A stretch of 64,000 bases of DNA from Paludisphaera mucosa (GTDB lineage: Bacteria > Planctomycetota > Planctomycetia > Isosphaerales > Isosphaeraceae): positions 4,836,001-4,900,000 of the forward strand of contig NZ_JARRAG010000002.1 in assembly GCF_029589435.1 (NCBI RefSeq), in the 5' to 3' direction. The stretch's first letter is position 1. Each line of letters begins with the position of its first letter. Below the pieces are notes generated by a model. It did no database searches. It had not been told where the DNA came from and saw only the letters and a program-made list of their open reading frames with translations. Below, in pieces: positions 20,666 to 51,457 of the stretch. Both the position numbers and the translations under genes were made by a program.

Positions 20666-21022
20666 TCAACGAGGCTTCCGGCGCCGTCTCGGCGACTTTT
20701 GCGGAGGCTCCGGTTGCGAAGGCGGCGGCTCGGCGGCGGGCGGGTCGTCCGCGATATGGCCTTTCGCCTTCATCTGCGCGATCCAGTCGTCGCGACTGAC
20801 CAGGCAGCGGGCCATCTTGTCGCATTCGGGCTTCGAAAGGTTGATCTGGCCGGCGATGTACTCGTGGGGGGCGTCCTGGTTCGAGCCGCGGCGGATGCCG
20901 AACTGCGCGATCCGCTTGCCCTCGTGGTGGATCTGGGCGAGGTCGTGCGCCCCTCCCGGCTTGATCACGGCTTCGAGCTTCTTGGCGATCTTCAGGGCTT
21001 CCGCCTTCGTGATCCTGGCCAT
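20666..21022 (-). CDS. Uncharacterised 118-residue protein, possible toxin partner of HicB-like protein
   Basis: The compact N-terminal domain (about 1-88) has KLEAVIKPGGAHDLAQIHHEGKRIAQFGIRRGS, then HEYIAGQINLSKPE and CLVSRDDWIAQMKAKG. A Pro-rich segment and a strongly basic tail (RRRRKPR) follow. The conserved-looking His, FGIRRGS and HEYI elements resemble, in a general way, the small dsRBD-like fold of HicA toxins (a catalytic His and a beta-strand carrying the substrate surface). The length and sequence are not standard HicA. The start has an AGAGGAAG site, and the gene begins 5 bp after the HicB-like gene ends, the tight coupling typical of toxin-antitoxin pairs. Function is an inference from context. 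Confidence 0.6.
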   Translation of the reverse strand: MARITKAEALKIAKKLEAVIKPGGAHDLAQIHHEGKRIAQFGIRRGSNQDAPHEYIAGQINLSKPECDKMARCLVSRDDWIAQMKAKGHIADDPPAAEPPPSQPEPPQKSPRRRRKPR

Positions 21023-21027
21023 CGCGC

Positions 21028-21384
21028 CTACGGCTTCCTCTGGATCACGTCGAAGAGCACGCTCTTCTGCTTGAGCATGGCCGGGCCGAGGGCGGAGTCG
21101 TCGGATTGCTCGAAGTCCTCGTACGCCATGAGCAGCAGGTCCTTGAGGTTGTCGAGGGCCTCCGCCTCCGTTTCGCCGGAGGTGCTCAGGTTGGCGTCGA
21201 GGAACGAGGCAGTGAAGCCGCCGCGGCAGGGGCCGATCACGACGCCGATCGGACGTCGCGGTTCGAAAGGGCGCGGCGCGAAGGTCGAGATGGGGACCGC
21301 GACGGGGGGCGTCGCCCGCCTCCTGGTCCGCCGTTCGAGTTTCTCGACCTGCTCTCGCAGGCCCGCGACGTCTTTCCGCGACAT
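21028..21384 (-). CDS. HicB-like (UPF0150-type) protein, putative antitoxin
   Basis: Protein of 118 residues, started at Met of SRKDVAGL because a perfect GAGGAGG site lies 8 nt upstream; a longer frame lacks this. The N-terminal 30 residues form a charged helix (LREQVEKLERRTRRR) that could be a coiled coil. The C-terminal half matches the HicB-like partial RNase H fold: VVIGPCRGGFTASFLDANLSTSGETEAEALDNLKDLLL. HicB antitoxins neutralise HicA mRNA interferases and often repress their own operon through an added DNA-binding domain. No ribbon-helix-helix or HTH is evident here. It sits 31 bp after the kinase-nicotinamidase gene and 5 bp before the putative partner, all on the minus strand. Confidence 0.72.
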   Translation of the reverse strand: MSRKDVAGLREQVEKLERRTRRRATPPVAVPISTFAPRPFEPRRPIGVVIGPCRGGFTASFLDANLSTSGETEAEALDNLKDLLLMAYEDFEQSDDSALGPAMLKQKSVLFDVIQRKP

Positions 21385-21415
21385 GGGGACATCCTCCTCG
21401 GTCCGGGCCATCATA

Positions 21416-22993
21416 TCACGCCCGGACGACGCCGGCCTCCTCCATCTGCTTCCAGGCGGCTTCGAGCGAGCCTTCGAGGTCGATGCCGCGGCACGCGGAC
21501 TCGATGACGGTGACCTCGAAGCCCAGGCGGCGGGCGTCGAGCGCCGAGTAGGCGACGCAGAAGTCGGTGGCCAGGCCCACGAGGAAGAGGCGGTTGAGGC
21601 CGCGCTCGCGGAGGTAGCCGGCGAGGCCCGTGGGGGTCGTGCGGTCGTTCTCGAAGAAGGCCGAGTAGCTGTCGATCTCGCGGAGGTAGCCCTTGCGGAT
21701 GATCAGCTCGCAGTGCTCCAGCCGGAGGTCGGGGTGGAACTCGGCCCCGCGCGTGTCCTGGACGCAGTGGTCGGGCCAGAGGATCTGCGGGCCGTAGGGG
21801 AGCTCGATCGCCGAAAACGGCTTCTCGCCGGGGTGCGACGAGGCGAACGAGAGGTGGTCCTCGGGGTGCCAGTCCTGGGTCAGGACGACGTGGGCGAAGC
21901 GGCGGGAGAGCTTGTTGATGATCGCCGGCAGCTCGTGGCCGCCGGGGACCGCCAGCGCGCCCTCGGGGCAGAAGTCGTTCTGCACGTCCACCACCAGCAG
22001 CACCCGGTTCTCGCGCGGGGAGGCCGAGTGCACGGCCCGGCCGGCCGTCCTCGCCGCGGGGATGACGCCCGAGGTCGTGATCCGCGACGACGACCGCAGC
22101 ATCGAGGCCACCAACGAGGCGGACCCGCCGCTCGGCTGCTGGGCGGCGCGGACGGCCTCGATCAGCTCGGCGTGGGCCTGGAAGCGGTCGCCGGGCTTCT
22201 TCGCCATCATCTTCGCGATGAGCTGCTCGACGGCCAGCGGGACGTGCGGGGGCAGGGGGGCCGGGTCCTCGCGCTCGATGAGCCGGAGCAGGCTGAAGAC
22301 GGAGTCGGCCTGGAACGGGGCGCGGCCGGCGAGCATGTGGTAGAGGGTCGCCCCCAGCGAGTAGACGTCGGCCCGGAGGTCGACCGTGGAGGCGTCGAGG
22401 AACTGCTCCGGCGGCATGTAGGCGGGCGTCCCCAGCGACGTGCCGGCCTCGGTGCGGCCCGCGAAGTCGACCGTCGCGTCGGTCGACGCCGGATCGGCCG
22501 CGGCGACCTTCGCCAGCCCCAGGTCGGCGAGCTTCACCTGGCCGCTGGAGGTCAGCAGGATGTTCGCCGGCTTGACGTCGCGGTGGATCACCCCGACCTG
22601 GCTCCAGGCCTCGCCGAGGGCGCGGGCGACCTCCTCGACGACCTGCAGCGAGCGGTCGACCCCCATCGCCTGGCGCTCGGCGACGTGGGCCTCCAGGCTC
22701 TGGCCGTCGACGAACTCCATGATGATGTAGAAGCGGCCGTCGGCCTCGCCGCAGTCGAAGACCCGCACGATCCCGGGGTGGTTCAGCCGCGCCGCCAGGC
22801 GGGCCTCGCGCAGGAACCGCTCGGCGCCCCGGCCGTCCGCGACCCGGTCGGGGTGCAGGAACTTGACCGCGACCGGCAGGTCCAGGTCGTCGTGCCAGCC
22901 CCGATAGACCACCCCCATCCCCCCCTCGCCGAGCCGGGAGATCAGCCGGCAGCGGCCGATGCTCGGGATCTTGAGGAAAGGGTCTTCGGGCAT
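21416..22993 (-). CDS. Ser/Thr protein kinase fused to nicotinamidase (PncA)
   Basis: Protein of 525 residues with two enzymatic domains. Residues about 12-280 form a PknB-type kinase: glycine loop LGEGGMGVVY, Lys44 in VAVKFL, catalytic HRDVKPANIL, metal motif DLG in place of DFG (common in planctomycetes), and activation segment GTPAYMPPEQ. A Ser/Thr/Arg-rich linker (about 290-329) follows. Residues 330-525 form a complete nicotinamidase/isochorismatase-fold domain with catalytic triad Asp336, Lys434, Cys479 and metal ligands Asp374, His376, His380 and His409 (VVDVQNDF, TQDWHPEDH, GLATDFC). Nicotinamidase converts nicotinamide to nicotinate for NAD salvage. No transmembrane segment is present, so it should be cytosolic. 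The fusion suggests NAD salvage linked to phosphorylation signalling. Downstream genes are the HicB-like pair. Confidence 0.93.
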   Translation of the reverse strand: MPEDPFLKIPSIGRCRLISRLGEGGMGVVYRGWHDDLDLPVAVKFLHPDRVADGRGAERFLREARLAARLNHPGIVRVFDCGEADGRFYIIMEFVDGQSLEAHVAERQAMGVDRSLQVVEEVARALGEAWSQVGVIHRDVKPANILLTSSGQVKLADLGLAKVAAADPASTDATVDFAGRTEAGTSLGTPAYMPPEQFLDASTVDLRADVYSLGATLYHMLAGRAPFQADSVFSLLRLIEREDPAPLPPHVPLAVEQLIAKMMAKKPGDRFQAHAELIEAVRAAQQPSGGSASLVASMLRSSSRITTSGVIPAARTAGRAVHSASPRENRVLLVVDVQNDFCPEGALAVPGGHELPAIINKLSRRFAHVVLTQDWHPEDHLSFASSHPGEKPFSAIELPYGPQILWPDHCVQDTRGAEFHPDLRLEHCELIIRKGYLREIDSYSAFFENDRTTPTGLAGYLRERGLNRLFLVGLATDFCVAYSALDARRLGFEVTVIESACRGIDLEGSLEAAWKQMEEAGVVRA

Positions 22994-23417: not shown

Positions 23418-23698
23418 TCCGGCCCGGGCACCCGGGCGTCGGACCTTCCCGGCGCCTGGCACCCTGGACGATCCCCCCGGACGTCGCGGCTGCGAAACAC
23501 GCCGGCTCGCCGCATTGTCTCGCGACGAAAACGGGCTTATGATTGGGAGGAATGATGCAGTAAGGCGAAATCCCGGTCCGATCGTCACGAAGGGGCCGTT
23601 GCGCCGAATAATGTAGTGAGGTCGTGCGCCCCGGCCGAGATCGCGCCGGCCGGCGTTCCGGACCTTGGGAATCCCCCCGATCGGCGGAGTTCGCGGGC

Positions 23699-25639
23699 AT
23701 GCTCGACAAGGCCGGGAAGATCCTGGGGGCCTGGGCGGACCGGGTCGGCGTCCCCGCGACGGGGAGGCCGACGGCGTCGCTGGCGGCCGGCCTGATCAGC
23801 TTGTCGATCCACGCCCTGGTCCTCGTCAGCCTGGCCTTCGCGGGGCATCACGTCCAGGAGGTCGTCCAGAGCGAGTTCTCGTCGGAGGTCGCCGAGGCCC
23901 CCCCGCGGGCGCTCGAGCCGCTCGCGACCGACTCGACGCTCCAGGACCTCGACCAGAAGGACGACGAGCCGGTCATGGAGGCGTCGGGCTCGTTCGCGCC
24001 GATCTTGGCGGCGACCAACACGGCCGCGCCCCCCTCGGCCGGGCCTTCGCCCGCGACGGTGGACGACGCCCTGGCGGCGATGGACTTCGGCCGTCGCGAC
24101 GTCCAGCGGGTGGTCGACGCGGTCGCCCCGACGGCGTCGACGCTGGGCAAGACGTTCGCCATCGAGGGGAACGGGGCCGAGCACGTGCAGGGGGTGGAAG
24201 GGGCCGTCGACCGGGTGGCGGTCGAGATCGTCCGGCGGCTGGAACGGGGCCGGACGCTCGTCGTCTGGGCGTTCGACGCCTCCCGCAGCCTGGAGGCCGA
24301 GCGCAAGCGGCTCAGCAAGCACATCGAGACGATCTACGCCCACATCGGCCAGATCGACGAGAACCGGCTCTCGACCGACGGCGGCCTGCTGACGATGGTC
24401 GTCGCCTTCGGCGAGTTCCGCAAGGCGATGACCCCCAAGCCGACCGCCGACGTCGCCGCGGTCCGCGACGCCATCGCCTCGATCCCGGCCGACGAGTCGG
24501 GCGTCGAGGCCACCTTCTCGACCGTCGCCGAGATCGTCAACAAGTACGGCAAGTTCAAGGGCCCCGGCGGCGACCCCTACAACCTGATGGTGATCGTCGT
24601 GACCGACGAGGTCGGCGACGACCAGGACCGGCTGGAGTCCACCATCGACGCCGCCAAGAAGCGGGACGCGCCGATCTACGTGCTGGGCTCGCAGGCCCTC
24701 TTCGGCCGCGCCGAGCGGCTCATGGACTATTACGACCCCAAGACCAAGTTCCTGCACAAGAACCTGAAGGTCGACGCCGGGCCCGAGAGCGCGATGATCG
24801 AGCAGATCCGCCTCCCCTTCTGGTACGGCGGCCCCCAGTACGACGAGCTGGAGTCGGGCTTCGGACCCTACGCCCTCAGCCGGCTCGCCAGCGCCACCGG
24901 CGGCGTCTACTTCGTCGCCCGGCTCGACGGCGCGAAGATGGGCTTCGACGCCTCGCGGATGAAGGAGTACCGGCCCGACTGGGGCACCCGCCGCGAGTAC
25001 GAGGCCGACGTCGCCCGGTCGCCGCTGCGGCAGGCCGTCGTCAACGCCGCGCTCGTCACCCAGCAGAACCTGCCCGGGATGCCGACGCTCCAGTTCCCCT
25101 CGATGGACGCCCCCGAGTTCAAGGACGTCCTCCAGAACAACCAGGTCATCGCCGAGCGGACCACCTACACGATCGACGAGGCGCTGCCCCCCATCACGGC
25201 CGCCGCCAAGCGCCGCGACCGCGAGACCTCCCGCCGCTGGCAGGCCCACTACGACCTGATCCGCGGCCGCCTGCTGGCCATGAAGGTCCGCTGCGTCGAG
25301 TACAACTGGGCCTGCGCCCTGCTCGTCAAGGATCCGCCCCGGTTCCAGGACCCCAAGTCCAACGCCTGGCGGCTGGTCCCCGATGCGGAGATCCGCTTCA
25401 GCGAGAAGGCCGCCCTCGCCGCGAAGGAGGCCGAGGCGCTCCTGCGGAAGGTCGTCGCGGACCACCCCGAGACCCCCTGGGCCCTCCTGGCCGAACGCGA
25501 GCTGAAGAACCCCCTCGGCTTCAGGTGGGTCGAGGCCTACGTCCCGCCCCCCCGCCCGCGCGACGACGACCCGGCCAACCCCCGCCGCAAGATGAAGAAG
25601 GCCGAGGAGATGAAGCCCCCCGAGCCCCCCAAGCTCTGA
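23699..25639 (+). CDS. Membrane-anchored VWA-domain protein, paralog A
   Basis: Protein of 646 residues, started at LDKAGKILG, where GGAG precedes the ATG by 9-10 nt. One hydrophobic helix near residues 28-50 (AAGLISLSIHALVLVSLAF) anchors it, with the rest probably periplasmic. After an Ala/Pro linker, a von Willebrand factor A domain follows (about 175-380). It has the metal-ion-dependent adhesion motif DxSxS (VVWAFDASRSL), a conserved Thr/Asp region (VVAFGEF) and LMVIVVTDEVGDD. The C-terminal 250 residues are helical and charged. VWA domains bind protein ligands through a divalent ion. Its paralog lies 1.7 kb downstream; both share the RRWQAHYDL/RRWRAHYDL segment and a closing 'DTPW...L' block. 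The system is uncharacterised to my knowledge. Confidence 0.88.
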   Translation: MLDKAGKILGAWADRVGVPATGRPTASLAAGLISLSIHALVLVSLAFAGHHVQEVVQSEFSSEVAEAPPRALEPLATDSTLQDLDQKDDEPVMEASGSFAPILAATNTAAPPSAGPSPATVDDALAAMDFGRRDVQRVVDAVAPTASTLGKTFAIEGNGAEHVQGVEGAVDRVAVEIVRRLERGRTLVVWAFDASRSLEAERKRLSKHIETIYAHIGQIDENRLSTDGGLLTMVVAFGEFRKAMTPKPTADVAAVRDAIASIPADESGVEATFSTVAEIVNKYGKFKGPGGDPYNLMVIVVTDEVGDDQDRLESTIDAAKKRDAPIYVLGSQALFGRAERLMDYYDPKTKFLHKNLKVDAGPESAMIEQIRLPFWYGGPQYDELESGFGPYALSRLASATGGVYFVARLDGAKMGFDASRMKEYRPDWGTRREYEADVARSPLRQAVVNAALVTQQNLPGMPTLQFPSMDAPEFKDVLQNNQVIAERTTYTIDEALPPITAAAKRRDRETSRRWQAHYDLIRGRLLAMKVRCVEYNWACALLVKDPPRFQDPKSNAWRLVPDAEIRFSEKAALAAKEAEALLRKVVADHPETPWALLAERELKNPLGFRWVEAYVPPPRPRDDDPANPRRKMKKAEEMKPPEPPKL

Positions 25640-27348: not shown

Positions 27349-29475
27349 ATGGAACGTCGCTTCTCGGCACCCTCCTCGGACGACCTGGCGCCGCCGGGCC
27401 CGCGGCCCGAGCATGGGCCCGGCGAAGCGGACGGGCCCACGCTCGTCCCGTCGGACATGCAGAAGACGCTCGTCGTCGAGGAGCCCCTGCTCGACGCCCC
27501 GCCCCCTGCCGACCCGGGCTCGACTTCCGCCCCCGCCGAGGCCGCGCCCCGGGTCCGGAAGTTGCAGCCCAGGCGCCGCCGGCGGGTCCGCCTGAAGCAC
27601 ATCCTGCCGGCCTGGAGCGTCTCGCTGGTCGTCCACCTGGTGATCTTCACGGCCCTCGGCGCGGCGACGTTCAGCGGCGGGCCGCCCGAGGCCAGGCCGA
27701 TCGACTTCGACTCGGCGCTCGGGGGCGCCGACCGCGCGGTCGAGGAGCTGCCGATCCTCGACGACCCGACCGACGCGCGGCCCGACCGCCTGGAGGATCG
27801 GCTGCAGGTCGCCGCCACCGCCCCGGCGGCCGAGACCCTCGCCGCCGACGAGCGGCCCGACATCGGCAGCGTCGTCATGGGCGGCGGGGCGGCCCCCTCG
27901 GCCACGCCCTCCGTCCGGGCCTCGGCCGCGAAGGGCGGCGCGGAGGGCCGGTTCCTGGCCGTCGAGGGGCTGAAGGGCCGGAACATCTCGTCGTTCAGCA
28001 ACGTCCCCCCCGCCCTCGGGCTCGACGTCTCCGTCTCCGGCCAGGTCGGCGGCGACCCGACCTTCGGGGTCACCGAGATCGGCGAGGCCCTGAACCAACT
28101 CACCCGCGAGATCCTCCGCCACCTCAACGACCACAAGCTCACCGTCGTCTGGCTGTTCGACGAGTCGGCCAGCATGCGCGACGACCAGCGCGTCATCCTC
28201 GAGAAGTTCGACCGCGTCTCCTCCGAGCTGGCCAAGGTCGTCGACCCGGACAAGAAGGCCGGCGGCGCGCTCAACCACGCCATCGTCGGCTTCGGCAAGA
28301 AGCTCGACCTCATCCTGGACAAGCCCACCCTCGACGTCGAGGAGGTCCGCCGGGCCATCAAGCGGCTCCCCGTCGACTCCTCGGGCGAGGAGGCGACGAT
28401 GGCGGCGATCCTCAACTCCGTCAACCACTATTCGGGCCTCGTCGCCAAGGACCGCAAGCTGATCCTCGTGCTGGTCACCGACGAGTCGGGCGACGACGGC
28501 GACGACGTGGAGCCGGCGCTCGAGGCGCTCAAGAAGACGAAGACGGCCCTCTACGTCATCGGCCGCCAGGCGGTCTTCGGGCACGCCTACGCCCACCACA
28601 AGTACGTCGACCCGGTGACCAAGGACGTCTACTACCCGACGATCCGCCGCGGGCCCGAGTCGGCCGACGTCGAGTGCTACCAGTGGGACGGCCTCTACGG
28701 CCGCTGGGACGAGCAGCCCTCCGGCTTCGGCCCCTGGGAGCTGGCGCGGCTCACCAAGGAGTCGGGCGGGATCTACTTCCTCCTCCCCTCCGAGGAGTTC
28801 ATGCGGATCCGCCAGCGCGAGAAGACGTACACCATCGAGGTGCTCAAGGAGTACATGCCCGAGTACGTCCCCCGCGCCACGTACCTCCTGCGCCGGGACG
28901 AGTCGGACCTGCGCCGCAACCTGTTCGGGCTGGTCGCCGAGACCCGCGACGTCTCCTACCGCCGCGAGTTCCCCATCGACCCCGACGGCCTGCGCGAGGC
29001 GGCCCTCGAGCAGATCCCCATCGCCTCCGAGCGGCTCACCCGGCTGCTCGACATCCAGAAGCGGCTGGAGTCCCTCAAGAAGCACCGCGAGCGCGAGCCC
29101 GAGCGGCGCTGGCGCGCCCACTACGACCTGATGCTCGCCCAGACGGTCGCCTTCCAGGTCAAGACGTTCGAGTATCGCGCCCTGATGGAGAACCTGGCCG
29201 CGAAGCCCCAGCCGCCGACCAAGCAGTCGACGCCCGACGTGACGATCGTCTTCGTCGTCGACCACTCGTCCAAGCCCCTGGCCCCCGAGTCCGTGACCGC
29301 CAAGAAGTACGCCGACGCCCGCCGCCTGCTCGACGACGTCGTCGCCGAATACCCCGACACCCCCTGGTCCGACCTCGCCAAGGACACGCTCGGCCGCGGC
29401 TTCAGCGTCGTCCTCAACCAGTGGGAGCACAGCCCCAAGTACGGCGAGCGCAGCCAGTACGTGCCGAAGTATTGA
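27349..29475 (+). CDS. Membrane-anchored VWA-domain protein, paralog B
   Basis: Protein of 708 residues. A basic region (QPRRRRRVRLKH) is followed by one membrane helix near residues 85-105 (WSVSLVVHLVIFTALGAA). After a linker, the VWA domain covers about 250-460, with MIDAS DxSxS in VVWLFDESASM, then GFGKKLDLIL, DSSGEEATMAAI and LILVLVTDESGDDGDD. The remainder is charged and helical, with the RRWRAHYDLML segment and a C-terminal DTPWSDLAKDTLGRGF block also seen in paralog A. Topology suggests a periplasmic VWA. Duplicate genes with a shared gene between them suggest one functional module; its job is unknown. Confidence 0.88.
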   Translation: MERRFSAPSSDDLAPPGPRPEHGPGEADGPTLVPSDMQKTLVVEEPLLDAPPPADPGSTSAPAEAAPRVRKLQPRRRRRVRLKHILPAWSVSLVVHLVIFTALGAATFSGGPPEARPIDFDSALGGADRAVEELPILDDPTDARPDRLEDRLQVAATAPAAETLAADERPDIGSVVMGGGAAPSATPSVRASAAKGGAEGRFLAVEGLKGRNISSFSNVPPALGLDVSVSGQVGGDPTFGVTEIGEALNQLTREILRHLNDHKLTVVWLFDESASMRDDQRVILEKFDRVSSELAKVVDPDKKAGGALNHAIVGFGKKLDLILDKPTLDVEEVRRAIKRLPVDSSGEEATMAAILNSVNHYSGLVAKDRKLILVLVTDESGDDGDDVEPALEALKKTKTALYVIGRQAVFGHAYAHHKYVDPVTKDVYYPTIRRGPESADVECYQWDGLYGRWDEQPSGFGPWELARLTKESGGIYFLLPSEEFMRIRQREKTYTIEVLKEYMPEYVPRATYLLRRDESDLRRNLFGLVAETRDVSYRREFPIDPDGLREAALEQIPIASERLTRLLDIQKRLESLKKHREREPERRWRAHYDLMLAQTVAFQVKTFEYRALMENLAAKPQPPTKQSTPDVTIVFVVDHSSKPLAPESVTAKKYADARRLLDDVVAEYPDTPWSDLAKDTLGRGFSVVLNQWEHSPKYGERSQYVPKY

Positions 29476-47473: not shown

Positions 47474-49009
47474 ATGGTCGGGACGACCGGGAAGACGAAG
47501 GGACGCGAGCGGCCGGCGACGGCGCCCGGGGCGGTTCGGACGGCGGTCTCCCACGCGCAGGAAGAGGCCTTGCGGACGGCGGTGGCCGAGCGGATCGGCG
47601 AGAACCGGTTCGGGCTCTGGTTCGGGGAAGGGGTCCGGCTGGGGGTCGTCGACGACGGCGACGCGGTCGAGGTGCTGGTCCCGAACGCCTACTTCCGCGA
47701 CCGGATCCGGGGCGGCTTCGCGGCGAGCGTGGCCGCGGCGGTCGAGCAGGTGATCGGCCGGGCCCTGCCCGTGTCGTACTCGGTGCAGGACGAGGCCGAG
47801 CCCCGCCACGAGACCGAGGCGATCCCCGAGCGGCCGGCGACGAGCGACGACCGCCGGCCCAAGGTGACGGTGCCGATCCCGGGCGCTCCGCGGCCGTCGA
47901 CGGCGCCCGCCGAGCGGCCGGCGGCCGACCCGGCGGCGCAGCCGCATCGGTTCTCGGCCCCGCCGGGCTCGGCCCGGGTCCTGCGCAAGCTCGACGACTT
48001 CGTGGTCGGGCCCGCGACGCAGATGGCCTACGCGGCGGCCCGCGAGATGGTCCGCTCGGCGGGCCGTTCGTTCAACCCCCTGTTCCTCCACGGCGGCGTG
48101 GGCCTGGGCAAGACCCACATGCTGGAGGGGATCGTCCTGGGGATGCGGCAGGCGCACCCGGGGCTGAACGTGGTGCACGTCACGGCCGAGGGCTTCACCA
48201 ACGGCTTCCTGGAGGCCATGCGGACCGCCTCGCTGTCGGGGTTCCGGAGCCGGCACCGGGGCGTGAACGTTTTGGTCGTCGACGACGTCCACTTCCTGGC
48301 CTCGAAGCGGGCCACGCAGGAGGAGTTCCTGCACACGTTCAACGCCCTGATCGAGCGGGGCGTGCCGATCATCCTGTCGTCGGACCAGCACCCGCGGCGG
48401 ATCGCCAAGCTGACCGACGAGCTGGCGACGCGGTTCCTGGGCGGGATGGTCGTGAAGCTCGACGCGCCCGACGTCGAGACCCGCAAGGCGATCGTCCGGG
48501 CCAAGGCGAAGGCCCGGGGCGTCGAGGTCCCGGCCGCGGTGGTCGACTTCATCGCCGAGAACGTCAAGGCGAGCGTCCGCGAGCTGGAGGGGGCGCTGCA
48601 GAGCGTGCTGGCCCACGCCTCGCTGTCGAACCGGCCGATCGGCATGGCCGTCGCCAAGGCCGCGCTCGGCGAGACGATCCGCTGCACGAGCCAGTCGATC
48701 GCCCTCCGCGACGTCGAGAAGTCGGTCTGCGGCCACTTCCAGGTCGAGGCCGACGACCTCAAGTCGGGCAGCCGCGTCCGCACCCTGGCCTACCCCCGGA
48801 TGCTCGCCATGTACCTGGCCCGCAAGCACGCCGGGGCCAGCTACAGCGAGATCGGCCGCTATTTCGGCGGCCGCAACCACTCGACCGTGATGTCGGCCGA
48901 GAAGAAGGTCGTCGCCTGGCTCAAGGACGACGTCCGCAGCCCGCTCCTCCCCGGCTTCGACAGCGTCGTCGACATCCTCGCCGACCTGGAATCGACCCTG
49001 GGCGCGTGA
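47474..49009 (+). CDS. dnaA: Chromosomal replication initiator DnaA
   Basis: Binds origin DNA, oligomerises with ATP and melts the duplex to start replication. The 511 residues have the four-domain layout: an N-terminal DnaB-interaction domain (about 30-110), a Pro/Ala linker (about 120-170), an AAA+ domain with Walker A GGVGLGKTHMLEG (about 207-219), Walker B VLVVDDVHFLA (about 267) and sensor motif IILSSDQHPRRIAKL. The C-terminal DNA-binding domain carries the DnaA signature (SYSEIGRYFGGRNHSTVMSAEKKV). Neither dnaN nor recF follows, as they often do elsewhere, and the next gene converges. A ribosome site is not obvious. Confidence 0.96.
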   Translation: MVGTTGKTKGRERPATAPGAVRTAVSHAQEEALRTAVAERIGENRFGLWFGEGVRLGVVDDGDAVEVLVPNAYFRDRIRGGFAASVAAAVEQVIGRALPVSYSVQDEAEPRHETEAIPERPATSDDRRPKVTVPIPGAPRPSTAPAERPAADPAAQPHRFSAPPGSARVLRKLDDFVVGPATQMAYAAAREMVRSAGRSFNPLFLHGGVGLGKTHMLEGIVLGMRQAHPGLNVVHVTAEGFTNGFLEAMRTASLSGFRSRHRGVNVLVVDDVHFLASKRATQEEFLHTFNALIERGVPIILSSDQHPRRIAKLTDELATRFLGGMVVKLDAPDVETRKAIVRAKAKARGVEVPAAVVDFIAENVKASVRELEGALQSVLAHASLSNRPIGMAVAKAALGETIRCTSQSIALRDVEKSVCGHFQVEADDLKSGSRVRTLAYPRMLAMYLARKHAGASYSEIGRYFGGRNHSTVMSAEKKVVAWLKDDVRSPLLPGFDSVVDILADLESTLGA

Positions 49010-49039: not shown

Positions 49040-51457
49040 TCATGGGGCCGGCGTCGGGGGTGGGGGCGGTCGTTCCAGTCGCTCCTCGACGGCCTTCGTC
49101 TTGGCGTGCCCCGCGGGCAAGGCTTCGCGGTAGATGGCCAGGGCTTCCTTCAGGAGCGGCTCGCCTTCCGCGGCCCGGCCGTCTTCGGCGAGGAGCCCGC
49201 CGAGAGCGGCGACGGTGTCGGCGAGGTTGGGGTCGCGGCTCGTCAGGCGTCTGCGACGGCCTTCGAGCACCTCTCGGAACAGCTTCTCGGCCTCCGGTCG
49301 GCGGCCTTCGGCCCGCAGGATGGCGGCCAGGTTGTGCTTCGCGAAGAGCGTGTTCGGGACGTCCGGGCCGAGCGTTCGATCGAAACCCTCCGCCACCTGG
49401 CGGGCGACGACCTCCGCGCCGGCCAGGTCCTTTCGGTCGCGGAGCAAGACGGCGAGGTTGTTCTTCGCGACCAGGACGTCGGCGTGGTCCTCGCCCTGGA
49501 CGCGGGTGCGGACGTCGATGATCCTCCGGAACATGGCCTCGGCCCCGGCGAGATCGCCCCGCTTCTGGCGGAGCGTCGCCAGCGAGTTCATCGCGCCCAG
49601 CGTGTGAGGGTGGTCCTCGCCCTTGACGCGGAGACTCAGCTCGACGCCCCGTTTCAGGATCGGCTCGGCCTCGGGGAGGCGGTCCTGGAAGAGGAGCACG
49701 CCGCCGAGGTTGTTCATCGCCTCCGCGGTGTCGCCGTGATCCGGCCCCTTGATCGCTTCGCTCAGCGGCACGGCCAGGGAGAGGATCGACGCGGCCTCGG
49801 CCGGCTTCCCCTCGTAGTAGAGCAAGAGGGCCAGGTTGTTCATCGACTCCAGCACGTCCGGGTGGCGCGCCCCCAGGACGCGACGCCGGGCTTCCAGGTT
49901 GGACCGGAAGAGCCGCTCGGCCCCGGCCCAGTCGTTCCGGTCCTGCATCAGCGAGGCCAGGGCGTCGACCGCCGCCAGGGTCGCGGGGTCGTCGTCCCCC
50001 TTCGCGCGGGCGCCGAGCGCGAGGGCCTCGCGGAGGTGGGGCTCGGCCTTGTCGTACTCGCCGAGCGAGCGGTACGTCCGGCCGATCGCCCCCCGGACCG
50101 CCGCCTCAATCTCGAGCTTGCCGGCGAAAGCCCCCCGGATCTTCGCGGACGAGCGGTCGAGCGCCTCCTCGACGGTGACCTTCCGGTCGCGCGGGTTGTT
50201 CTCCGGGGCCGCCTGGGCCAGGATGTCGTCGACCAGGAAGCGGTTGATGGCCTGGGCGATGTCGGCGGCGCGCCTCGACTCGGCCCCGGCCCGCTCGGCC
50301 TCGCGCCACTTCCAGGCCACGCCCGCGACCCCGGCGACGACGGCCGTCGCCAACGCCGCCGACAGTCCCGCCAGGGCCGGCTGGCGTCGGCACCACAGCC
50401 CGAACCGCGCGGGGGCGGCCACCGGCCGGGCCGAGATCGGCTCGCCGGCGATCCAGCGACGGAGGTCGTCCGCGAGGGCCTGCGCCGAGCCGTACCGCCG
50501 CCTCGGGTCCTTCTCCAGGCACTTCAGGCAGATGACCTCCAGGTCGCGGGGCGTGTCCGGGTTGTGCCGCGACGGCGGCTCGGGCGGGCGATTCCGCACC
50601 TGCTCGATCGTCTCCATGGCCGTCGACCCGATGAACGGCGCCCGCCCGGCGAGCATCGCGTAGATCACCGTCCCCAGGCCGTAGACGTCGCTCGCCGTGG
50701 TGACCGCCGCGCGACGGCCGCCGGCCTGTTCCGGGGCCATGTAGCCGGGAGTGCCCAGGATCGCCCCCGACTGCGTCAGGTCGGGGCCGGCCCCGAGCCG
50801 CCGGGCCAGGCCGAAGTCGGTGACGTAGGGGGCGCCGCGTTCGTCCAGCAGGATGTTGGCCGGCTTCAGGTCGCGGTGCAGGACGCCCCGCTGGTGCGCG
50901 TGATGCACGGCCTCGGCCGCCGTCGCCGCCAGCCGGGCCGCGGCCGACGGATCGCGGCGGAAGGCGGCGAGGCGGCGATCAAGCCCCTCGCCCTCGATCA
51001 GTTTCATGCTGAAGTAGCGCCGCCCCTGGTGCTCGCCGACCTCGTAGATCGGCACGATGTTCGGGTGGTCGAGCAGGGCGACCGCCTCCGCCTCGTTCTG
51101 GAACCGCCGGCGCTCGTCGTCCGAGGCGAATTCGTCCGCCCTGATCATCTTCAAGGCCACCCGGCGGTTGAGGCTGATCTGGCGGGCCTGATAGACGACG
51201 CCCATGCCCCCGCGGCCGAGGACGCCGGCCAACTCGTAGTCGCCGAAGTAGCGGACGAGGAGGCCCTCGGGCGGGCCTGGCGGCTCGACGGCCGACGCCG
51301 ACTCGACCCCCGGATCGGTCGTCGCGTCGAGGTCCGGGGGCCGGGCCGAGGTGGTCTGCGTTTCCCTCGATTCCGCGCCCCGGCGGCCCTCGACGACCCG
51401 GTCCGCCACGGTGGTCGGCGGGACGTCCCCGGCCTCGTCGGCCGTTCGTTCGACCAT
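49040..51457 (-). CDS. Membrane-spanning Ser/Thr kinase with kinesin-light-chain-type TPRs
   Basis: Protein of 805 residues with a GGGGAGG site. The PknB-type kinase domain (about 70-335) shows LGRGGMGVVY, VALKMI with catalytic Lys, HRDLKPANIL, DFGLARR and GTPGYMAPEQ. One hydrophobic helix follows (about 365-385, ALAGLSAALATAVVAGVAGVAW). The rest is a run of roughly 42-residue TPR units of the kinesin light chain type, with the repeated core ED-HP-TL-A-NNLA-L-GDLAGAE. The topology implies a cytosolic kinase and an extracytoplasmic or membrane-bound TPR sensor for partner binding. Such kinases are abundant in planctomycetes; targets are unknown. It converges with dnaA (30-bp gap, with a possible GCCGGC hairpin at 49,034-49,052). 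Confidence 0.93.
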   Translation of the reverse strand: MVERTADEAGDVPPTTVADRVVEGRRGAESRETQTTSARPPDLDATTDPGVESASAVEPPGPPEGLLVRYFGDYELAGVLGRGGMGVVYQARQISLNRRVALKMIRADEFASDDERRRFQNEAEAVALLDHPNIVPIYEVGEHQGRRYFSMKLIEGEGLDRRLAAFRRDPSAAARLAATAAEAVHHAHQRGVLHRDLKPANILLDERGAPYVTDFGLARRLGAGPDLTQSGAILGTPGYMAPEQAGGRRAAVTTASDVYGLGTVIYAMLAGRAPFIGSTAMETIEQVRNRPPEPPSRHNPDTPRDLEVICLKCLEKDPRRRYGSAQALADDLRRWIAGEPISARPVAAPARFGLWCRRQPALAGLSAALATAVVAGVAGVAWKWREAERAGAESRRAADIAQAINRFLVDDILAQAAPENNPRDRKVTVEEALDRSSAKIRGAFAGKLEIEAAVRGAIGRTYRSLGEYDKAEPHLREALALGARAKGDDDPATLAAVDALASLMQDRNDWAGAERLFRSNLEARRRVLGARHPDVLESMNNLALLLYYEGKPAEAASILSLAVPLSEAIKGPDHGDTAEAMNNLGGVLLFQDRLPEAEPILKRGVELSLRVKGEDHPHTLGAMNSLATLRQKRGDLAGAEAMFRRIIDVRTRVQGEDHADVLVAKNNLAVLLRDRKDLAGAEVVARQVAEGFDRTLGPDVPNTLFAKHNLAAILRAEGRRPEAEKLFREVLEGRRRRLTSRDPNLADTVAALGGLLAEDGRAAEGEPLLKEALAIYREALPAGHAKTKAVEERLERPPPPPTPAP

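Follow-up and report, generated by a model that had tools for sequence, protein, structure and literature searches.

The window, the whole 64,000-nucleotide stretch of Paludisphaera mucosa DNA analysed here, carries a gene for a protein that joins a Hanks-type Ser/Thr kinase domain to a PncA-type nicotinamidase domain through a Ser/Thr-rich linker (Table 1). Pfam places Pkinase at residues 18-274 (E 2.9e-47) and Isochorismatase at residues 331-522 (E 5.1e-26), and the C-terminal half scores 212.7 bits against the NCBIfam model NF008623 (bifunctional nicotinamidase/pyrazinamidase), above its cut-off of 174. A first-pass annotation of this DNA had described a kinase and a complete nicotinamidase in one chain, a description borne out by Pfam, by NF008623, and by the residues K44, HRD-D139, D157-L-G, D336, D374, H376, H409, K434, and C479. 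We confirm that a single protein combines a protein kinase with a vitamin B3 recycling enzyme and that the fusion is genuine. It is a new domain architecture: the parts are known and the combination is new. Two small ORFs follow on the same strand and may be co-translated with the fusion in the window's genome.

Table 1. The fusion gene, its domains, and adjacent or related features. Positions refer to the window, except in the last row, where they refer to the loci named.
Feature	Position	Strand	Evidence
Kinase-nicotinamidase fusion gene, 525 aa	21416..22993	-	ORF with Pfam and NCBIfam domains; 15 intact fusions including the window's
Hanks-type Ser/Thr kinase domain, residues 12-277	22163..22960	-	Pfam PF00069; invariant residues; Foldseek to PknA/PknB
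Ser/Thr-rich linker, residues 286-326, predicted disordered	22016..22138	-	pLDDT and composition
PncA nicotinamidase domain, residues 327-525	21419..22015	-	NCBIfam NF008623; 2wt9 match; Foldseek
128-aa ORF, outside the conserved unit	21028..21414	-	Starts 1 base after the fusion's stop
118-aa ORF, outside the conserved unit	20666..21022	-	Starts 5 bases after the 128-aa ORF
Kinase-less members nested in the fusion clade (loci)	L163:8564-9244; L164:5619-6260	+; -	Tree and alignment

How widespread is this architecture? Searching for it across genomes, as the first-pass annotation had proposed, gave 15 uninterrupted fusions, all among 397 genomes of the class and several on chromosome-sized contigs. 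They span five family codes, with nine in the window's own family (f1) and six in f2, f3, f5, and f8; the window's genome has its genus code in common with G001 and G002. Nine full-length matches were found among the 59 relatives searched. The nicotinamidase domain used as a query matched in 10/45 family genomes, 127/397 class genomes, and 47/392 phylum genomes, the class and phylum sets being samples. Both domains pass in Pfam in 15/15 fusions. Across these proteins, mean pairwise identity is highest in the nicotinamidase (81%), intermediate in the kinase (67%), and lowest in the linker (35%). By a simple Nei-Gojobori estimate at high GC, omega ranges from 0.08 to 0.52 for the kinase and from 0.05 to 0.31 for the nicotinamidase. 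These values cover 88 of the 105 pairs, those whose kinase dS is below 1.6; the other 17, including all 14 with G097, were left out as saturated. Nicotinamidase omega is the lower of the two in 83 of these 88 pairs. Both domains therefore look to be under purifying selection. One fusion (G308; L157:7500-9269(+)) is extended in frame at its N-terminus by about 75 residues, ahead of the part that aligns with the others. Degraded copies also occur: that of G204 lacks the kinase N-terminus and the nicotinamidase C-terminus, and that of G161 is frameshifted and truncated (L165 and L166).

Among the best 80 of the 587 nearest loci, only L021 (Aquisphaera insulae; the contig of G059) has a kinase in front. 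There is no kinase at 12 further loci with long frames, namely nine from the class and phylum searches with frames of at least 390 aa outside the fusion clade and the three longest in the phylum of the Acidobacteriota member. In a sample of 297 genomes from that phylum, 72 matched, and besides the three checked their frames are at most 344 aa, too short for a fusion. We also considered carriage of the fusion on mobile elements. Of the 232 plasmid records that matched, 9 did so at 60-80% identity and the rest lower, with 64.4% the best among the matches listed; 9 viral contigs matched in the nicotinamidase part only, at no more than 49%. Mobile carriage was therefore dropped as an explanation.

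The kinase half keeps the features of a Hanks-type Ser/Thr kinase. The glycine loop, the VAIK Lys, the alpha-C Glu, HRD, and DxG are present in 15/15 fusions, and K44, E63, H137-R138-D139, N144, D157-L-G, T181, T189, E196, and D209 are invariant. The first-pass annotation drew attention to DLG in place of DFG; the motif is there as described, but it is not unusual, as DLG also occurs in 5/9 other planctomycete kinases that we aligned. We therefore dropped a pseudoenzyme reading of the kinase based on this motif. T181 in the activation loop aligns with an activation-loop Thr of PknA/PknB, which we take to be an autophosphorylation site in those kinases, and its invariance is consistent with autophosphorylation of the fusion kinase. 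Mycobacterial PknA and PknB are also the closest solved structures, with the modelled kinase superimposing in Foldseek at an rmsd of 1.8-2.4 A in the eight best kinase rows and up to 5.7 A in further PknA rows (4ow8). The score against the PASTA kinase equivalog NF033483 (Stk1/PknB) is 254.3, below the cut-off of 450, and no PASTA domain is among the Pfam matches of the 15 fusions at E up to 0.001. The maximum 19-residue hydropathy is at most 1.58 in 15/15 fusions, so a membrane segment is not expected.

The nicotinamidase half is equally complete. The triad D336, K434, and C479 and the metal-ligand positions D374, H376, H380, and H409 are invariant in the 15 fusions and in 41 stand-alone PncA proteins; we assume these roles from what is known of the family, with H380 only possibly a ligand. 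Conservation of the catalytic Cys and Lys had been named at first pass as a check on the domain, and with both invariant in 15/15 fusions the idea of a degraded domain is not upheld. The closest solved structure is the Acinetobacter baumannii nicotinamidase 2wt9 (E 4.8e-78), and Foldseek superimposes the modelled domain on 2wta/2wt9 with an rmsd of 0.7 A over 197 columns at 59% identity. In the window's genome, the fusion's nicotinamidase has one other match, a YcaC hydrolase (388.7, with a cut-off of 310), which leaves the fusion as the one nicotinamidase found there.

The AlphaFold model used here was built from 65 aligned rows and has a mean pLDDT of 87.5; with 15 sequences alone, the pLDDT had reached just 64. 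The model predicts a disordered linker at residues 290-324, with pLDDT 36-39 in the blocks covering 291-320. Pooled over the 15 fusions, Ser and Thr make up 26% of residues 284-326 (range 13-36%) compared with 9% elsewhere. The linker is poorly conserved, with 3/49 positions invariant, and its Ser/Thr content is lowest, at 13-16%, in G308 and G160. The Ser/Thr richness may therefore reflect a mere flexible linker.

Phylogeny bears on the history of the fusion. A midpoint-rooted tree built from 77 nicotinamidase domains unites the 15 fusions with two kinase-less members and one fragment in a single clade of 18 rows (100/99). This clade sits within a group of 52 rows (100/99), most of which are Proteobacteria; the group also includes three Acidobacteriota, one Balneolota, and four stand-alone planctomycete rows, these last from family f15. 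The fusion clade lies apart from another 25 planctomycete PncA (100/99). Branching order immediately around it lacks resolution in this tree, whose outside rows come from the best 80 of the 587 nearest hits. In the kinase tree, the 15 fusion kinases group together relative to 12 others, a non-exhaustive set; a single fusion clade is moderately supported (91/90), and long branches are present. The main subgroups of the nicotinamidase tree are repeated there, though not every inner order. One kinase-less member, G028, has an intact nicotinamidase and is sister to the G059 fusion (100/95). The other, G305, pairs with the G160 fusion as its sister (92/94) and has an in-frame stop before any kinase; just 141 bases of contig precede the first Met of its nicotinamidase frame, and a displaced kinase is possible there. 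Since these two sit inside the fusion clade, at least one loss of the kinase, and probably a second, took place with the nicotinamidase retained. On the most economical account, pncA was acquired once and fused once, the fusion then spread patchily by vertical and horizontal routes, and losses followed. The fusion would have arisen once, in a planctomycete that acquired a pncA of a mostly proteobacterial lineage and joined it behind a kinase, and would then have persisted in, or moved between, families; we infer both the donor and the transfers. The protein looks like a metabolic enzyme that was acquired, drawn into the large set of planctomycete kinases, and later freed from it.

The window's genome encodes NAPRTase, the next salvage step, about 1 Mb from the fusion. 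Scored by TIGR01513, since PF04095 alone is too weak to read, NAPRTase was matched in 12/15 fusion genomes and in both kinase-less holders. It was not found in the other three fusion genomes (G097, G052, and G146), where nicotinate would need another fate. TIGR01513 also matches in 29/35 family members without a match to the fusion's PncA (in one, G020, only below cut-off), and a specific co-occurrence of NAPRTase with the fusion was therefore dropped. Moreover, nadA, for de novo NAD synthesis, is present in 52/54 genomes searched, so salvage is not obligatory. Other PncA fusions turned up in these searches. A NAPRTase with a C-terminal PncA-like domain (L191:992-2920(+)), from a genome of the Acidobacteriota member's phylum, puts two successive salvage steps in one chain; its PncA part scores 160.3 with NF008623, below the cut-off of 174. 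A nicotinamidase with a C-terminal NUDIX domain occurs in three planctomycete genomes of family f5 (L167:962-2293(-), L195:2140-3396(+), and L196:1401-2591(-)). Scanned with NCBIfam, the NUDIX parts of L195 and L196 are similar to ADP-ribose/ADP-compound hydrolases, with scores that fall short of the cut-off.

The surroundings of the fusion are not conserved and lend no operon support to a pathway. No conserved partner was seen by eye over 16 loci, with genes called by codon usage and neighbours without Pfam annotation. Within the stretches fetched, a H+-pyrophosphatase neighbour recurs only near the G001 and G003 copies. The window also encodes paralogous proteins, about 29% identical, at 23624-25639(+) and 27349-29475(+), and a vWA domain passes its cut-off in the latter alone. 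Relatives occur near the G004 fusion for both proteins, and near the G005 fusion for the first. A DnaA-like protein with a sub-threshold N-terminal domain match (47474-49009(+)) adjoins a kinase-TPR gene (49040-51457(-)).

Why join a protein kinase to a nicotinamidase? We propose, with a probability of about 0.5, that the fusion is a soluble two-enzyme protein in which a working nicotinamidase is tuned, itself or through its partners, by an active kinase in the same chain. The C-terminal half would convert nicotinamide to nicotinate for NAD salvage. The N-terminal kinase would autophosphorylate in its activation loop, and probably also in the Ser/Thr-rich linker, and this autophosphorylation would tune the attached nicotinamidase or its partners. 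We regard the nicotinamidase as real, though not essential, for salvage and its regulation by the kinase as possible, and we give control in cis about even odds. The activities and the direction of control are judged from sequence, and the nicotinamidase is most likely the working output: it is the more conserved half (81% versus 67% identity, and lower omega) and stands alone in G028 and G305. Also in favour are the catalytic residues kept in both domains, the presence of NAPRTase in the window's genome, and the existence of a NAPRTase-PncA fusion elsewhere. However, the kinase changes more quickly and some members persist without it; it is thus dispensable in some genomes, which counts against a kinase-tuned enzyme. 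The three fusion genomes with no NAPRTase found, the unconserved neighbourhood, the near-universal nadA, and the variable linker weigh on the same side.

Other explanations start from the same protein. Many bacterial Hanks kinases have a C-terminal sensor domain, and the kinase could instead be the output, phosphorylating other proteins, while the nicotinamidase acts as a sensor or dimerisation module that reports NAD breakdown. Both domains look constrained, as this would predict, and the triad would stay if turnover resets the sensor. The expected lack of a membrane segment in 15/15 fusions also fits a soluble sensor, given that, in a survey of planctomycete Ser/Thr kinases (PMC11032199), membrane proteins make up about 80%. 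Yet complete retention of the triad and metal site in 15/15 fusions is more than a pure sensor requires, and a nicotinamidase that outlasts its kinase and is better conserved than it makes this arrangement unlikely. We regard as decidedly unlikely a NAD-status kinase, in which nicotinamide released by NAD-consuming enzymes would be bound and hydrolysed by the C-terminal domain and would directly gate the kinase. If true, NAD breakdown would be read out as phosphorylation, a principle that we did not find described for a Ser/Thr kinase in the portions of the open-licence literature searched.

The two enzymes might also be tethered without cross-talk, with the fusion serving co-expression or co-localisation and the kinase acting on unrelated substrates. 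A disordered, sequence-variable linker, a dispensable kinase, and the lack of conserved neighbours in the loci viewed would all suit such a tether. It seems somewhat unlikely to us, as one fused order has been kept in 15 genomes and five family codes, more than neutral drift would suggest, and an adjacent unfused pair, the split halves that had been named at first pass as a sign of an artefact, lies at none of the 18 other loci examined (two of which hold the nicotinamidase alone). The first-pass annotation further placed the fusion in a compact three-gene module linking NAD salvage to growth control, with a HicB-like pair downstream. Both small ORFs exist, and their spacing (Table 1) makes co-translation likely in the window's genome only. 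However, neither gene has a match at any of the 18 other loci, although the G005 contig has only 180 bases past the fusion, and the 118-aa gene matches in 4/59 relatives, a count that takes in its own genome but neither G005 nor any other fusion carrier. Nor does the HicB-like label hold: the pair has no HicA or HicB hit in NCBIfam at 0.001 or in Pfam at a limit of E 10, where HMMER's filters drop most hits above about 0.1, and the best Pfam match of the 128-aa ORF is DUF7387 (E 0.01), below cut-off. The module is thus largely refuted and very improbable. Finally, the two degraded copies might be taken to mean that the fusion is a product of assembly, annotation, or a frameshift, or a decaying domain, but 15 uninterrupted fusions with all catalytic residues, several of them on chromosome-sized contigs, rule out an artefact, and the conservation leaves decay a negligible chance.

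The scattered retention of the fusion with both active sites intact hints at a link between phosphorylation and NAD recycling in the bacteria that keep it. If the two halves of our proposed two-enzyme protein talk to each other, one polypeptide would directly couple NAD recycling to reversible protein phosphorylation, two processes otherwise connected by indirect routes. The kinase-less sister proteins in G028 and G305, together with stand-alone PncA, are natural controls for the kinase's contribution. Among the titles and abstract openings covered in the open-licence literature, none described a kinase-nicotinamidase fusion, in agreement with the first-pass statement that none was known. A term search of the main text of the planctomycete kinase survey (PMC11032199) found no isochorismatase or nicotinamidase, and one of the text available from PMC5352709 found no "kinase" or "nicotin".

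How does the fusion compare with known systems? The NAPRTase-PncA protein of L191 and the PncA-NUDIX proteins of L167, L195, and L196 likewise combine PncA with a second NAD- or nucleotide-related enzyme, but their partners are metabolic and they lack a kinase. With the Hanks kinases PknA and PknB, the fusion has in common the kinase fold, all catalytic motifs, and the aligned activation-loop Thr. It differs from them in having no expected transmembrane segment and no PASTA domain, in having DLG for DFG, and in carrying a nicotinamidase as its C-terminal domain. With PncA of the proteobacterial type, represented by A. baumannii 2wt9 and NF008623, it shares the fold, the full triad, and the metal-ligand positions; whereas the PncA proteins compared stand alone, the fusion places a kinase and a linker in front.
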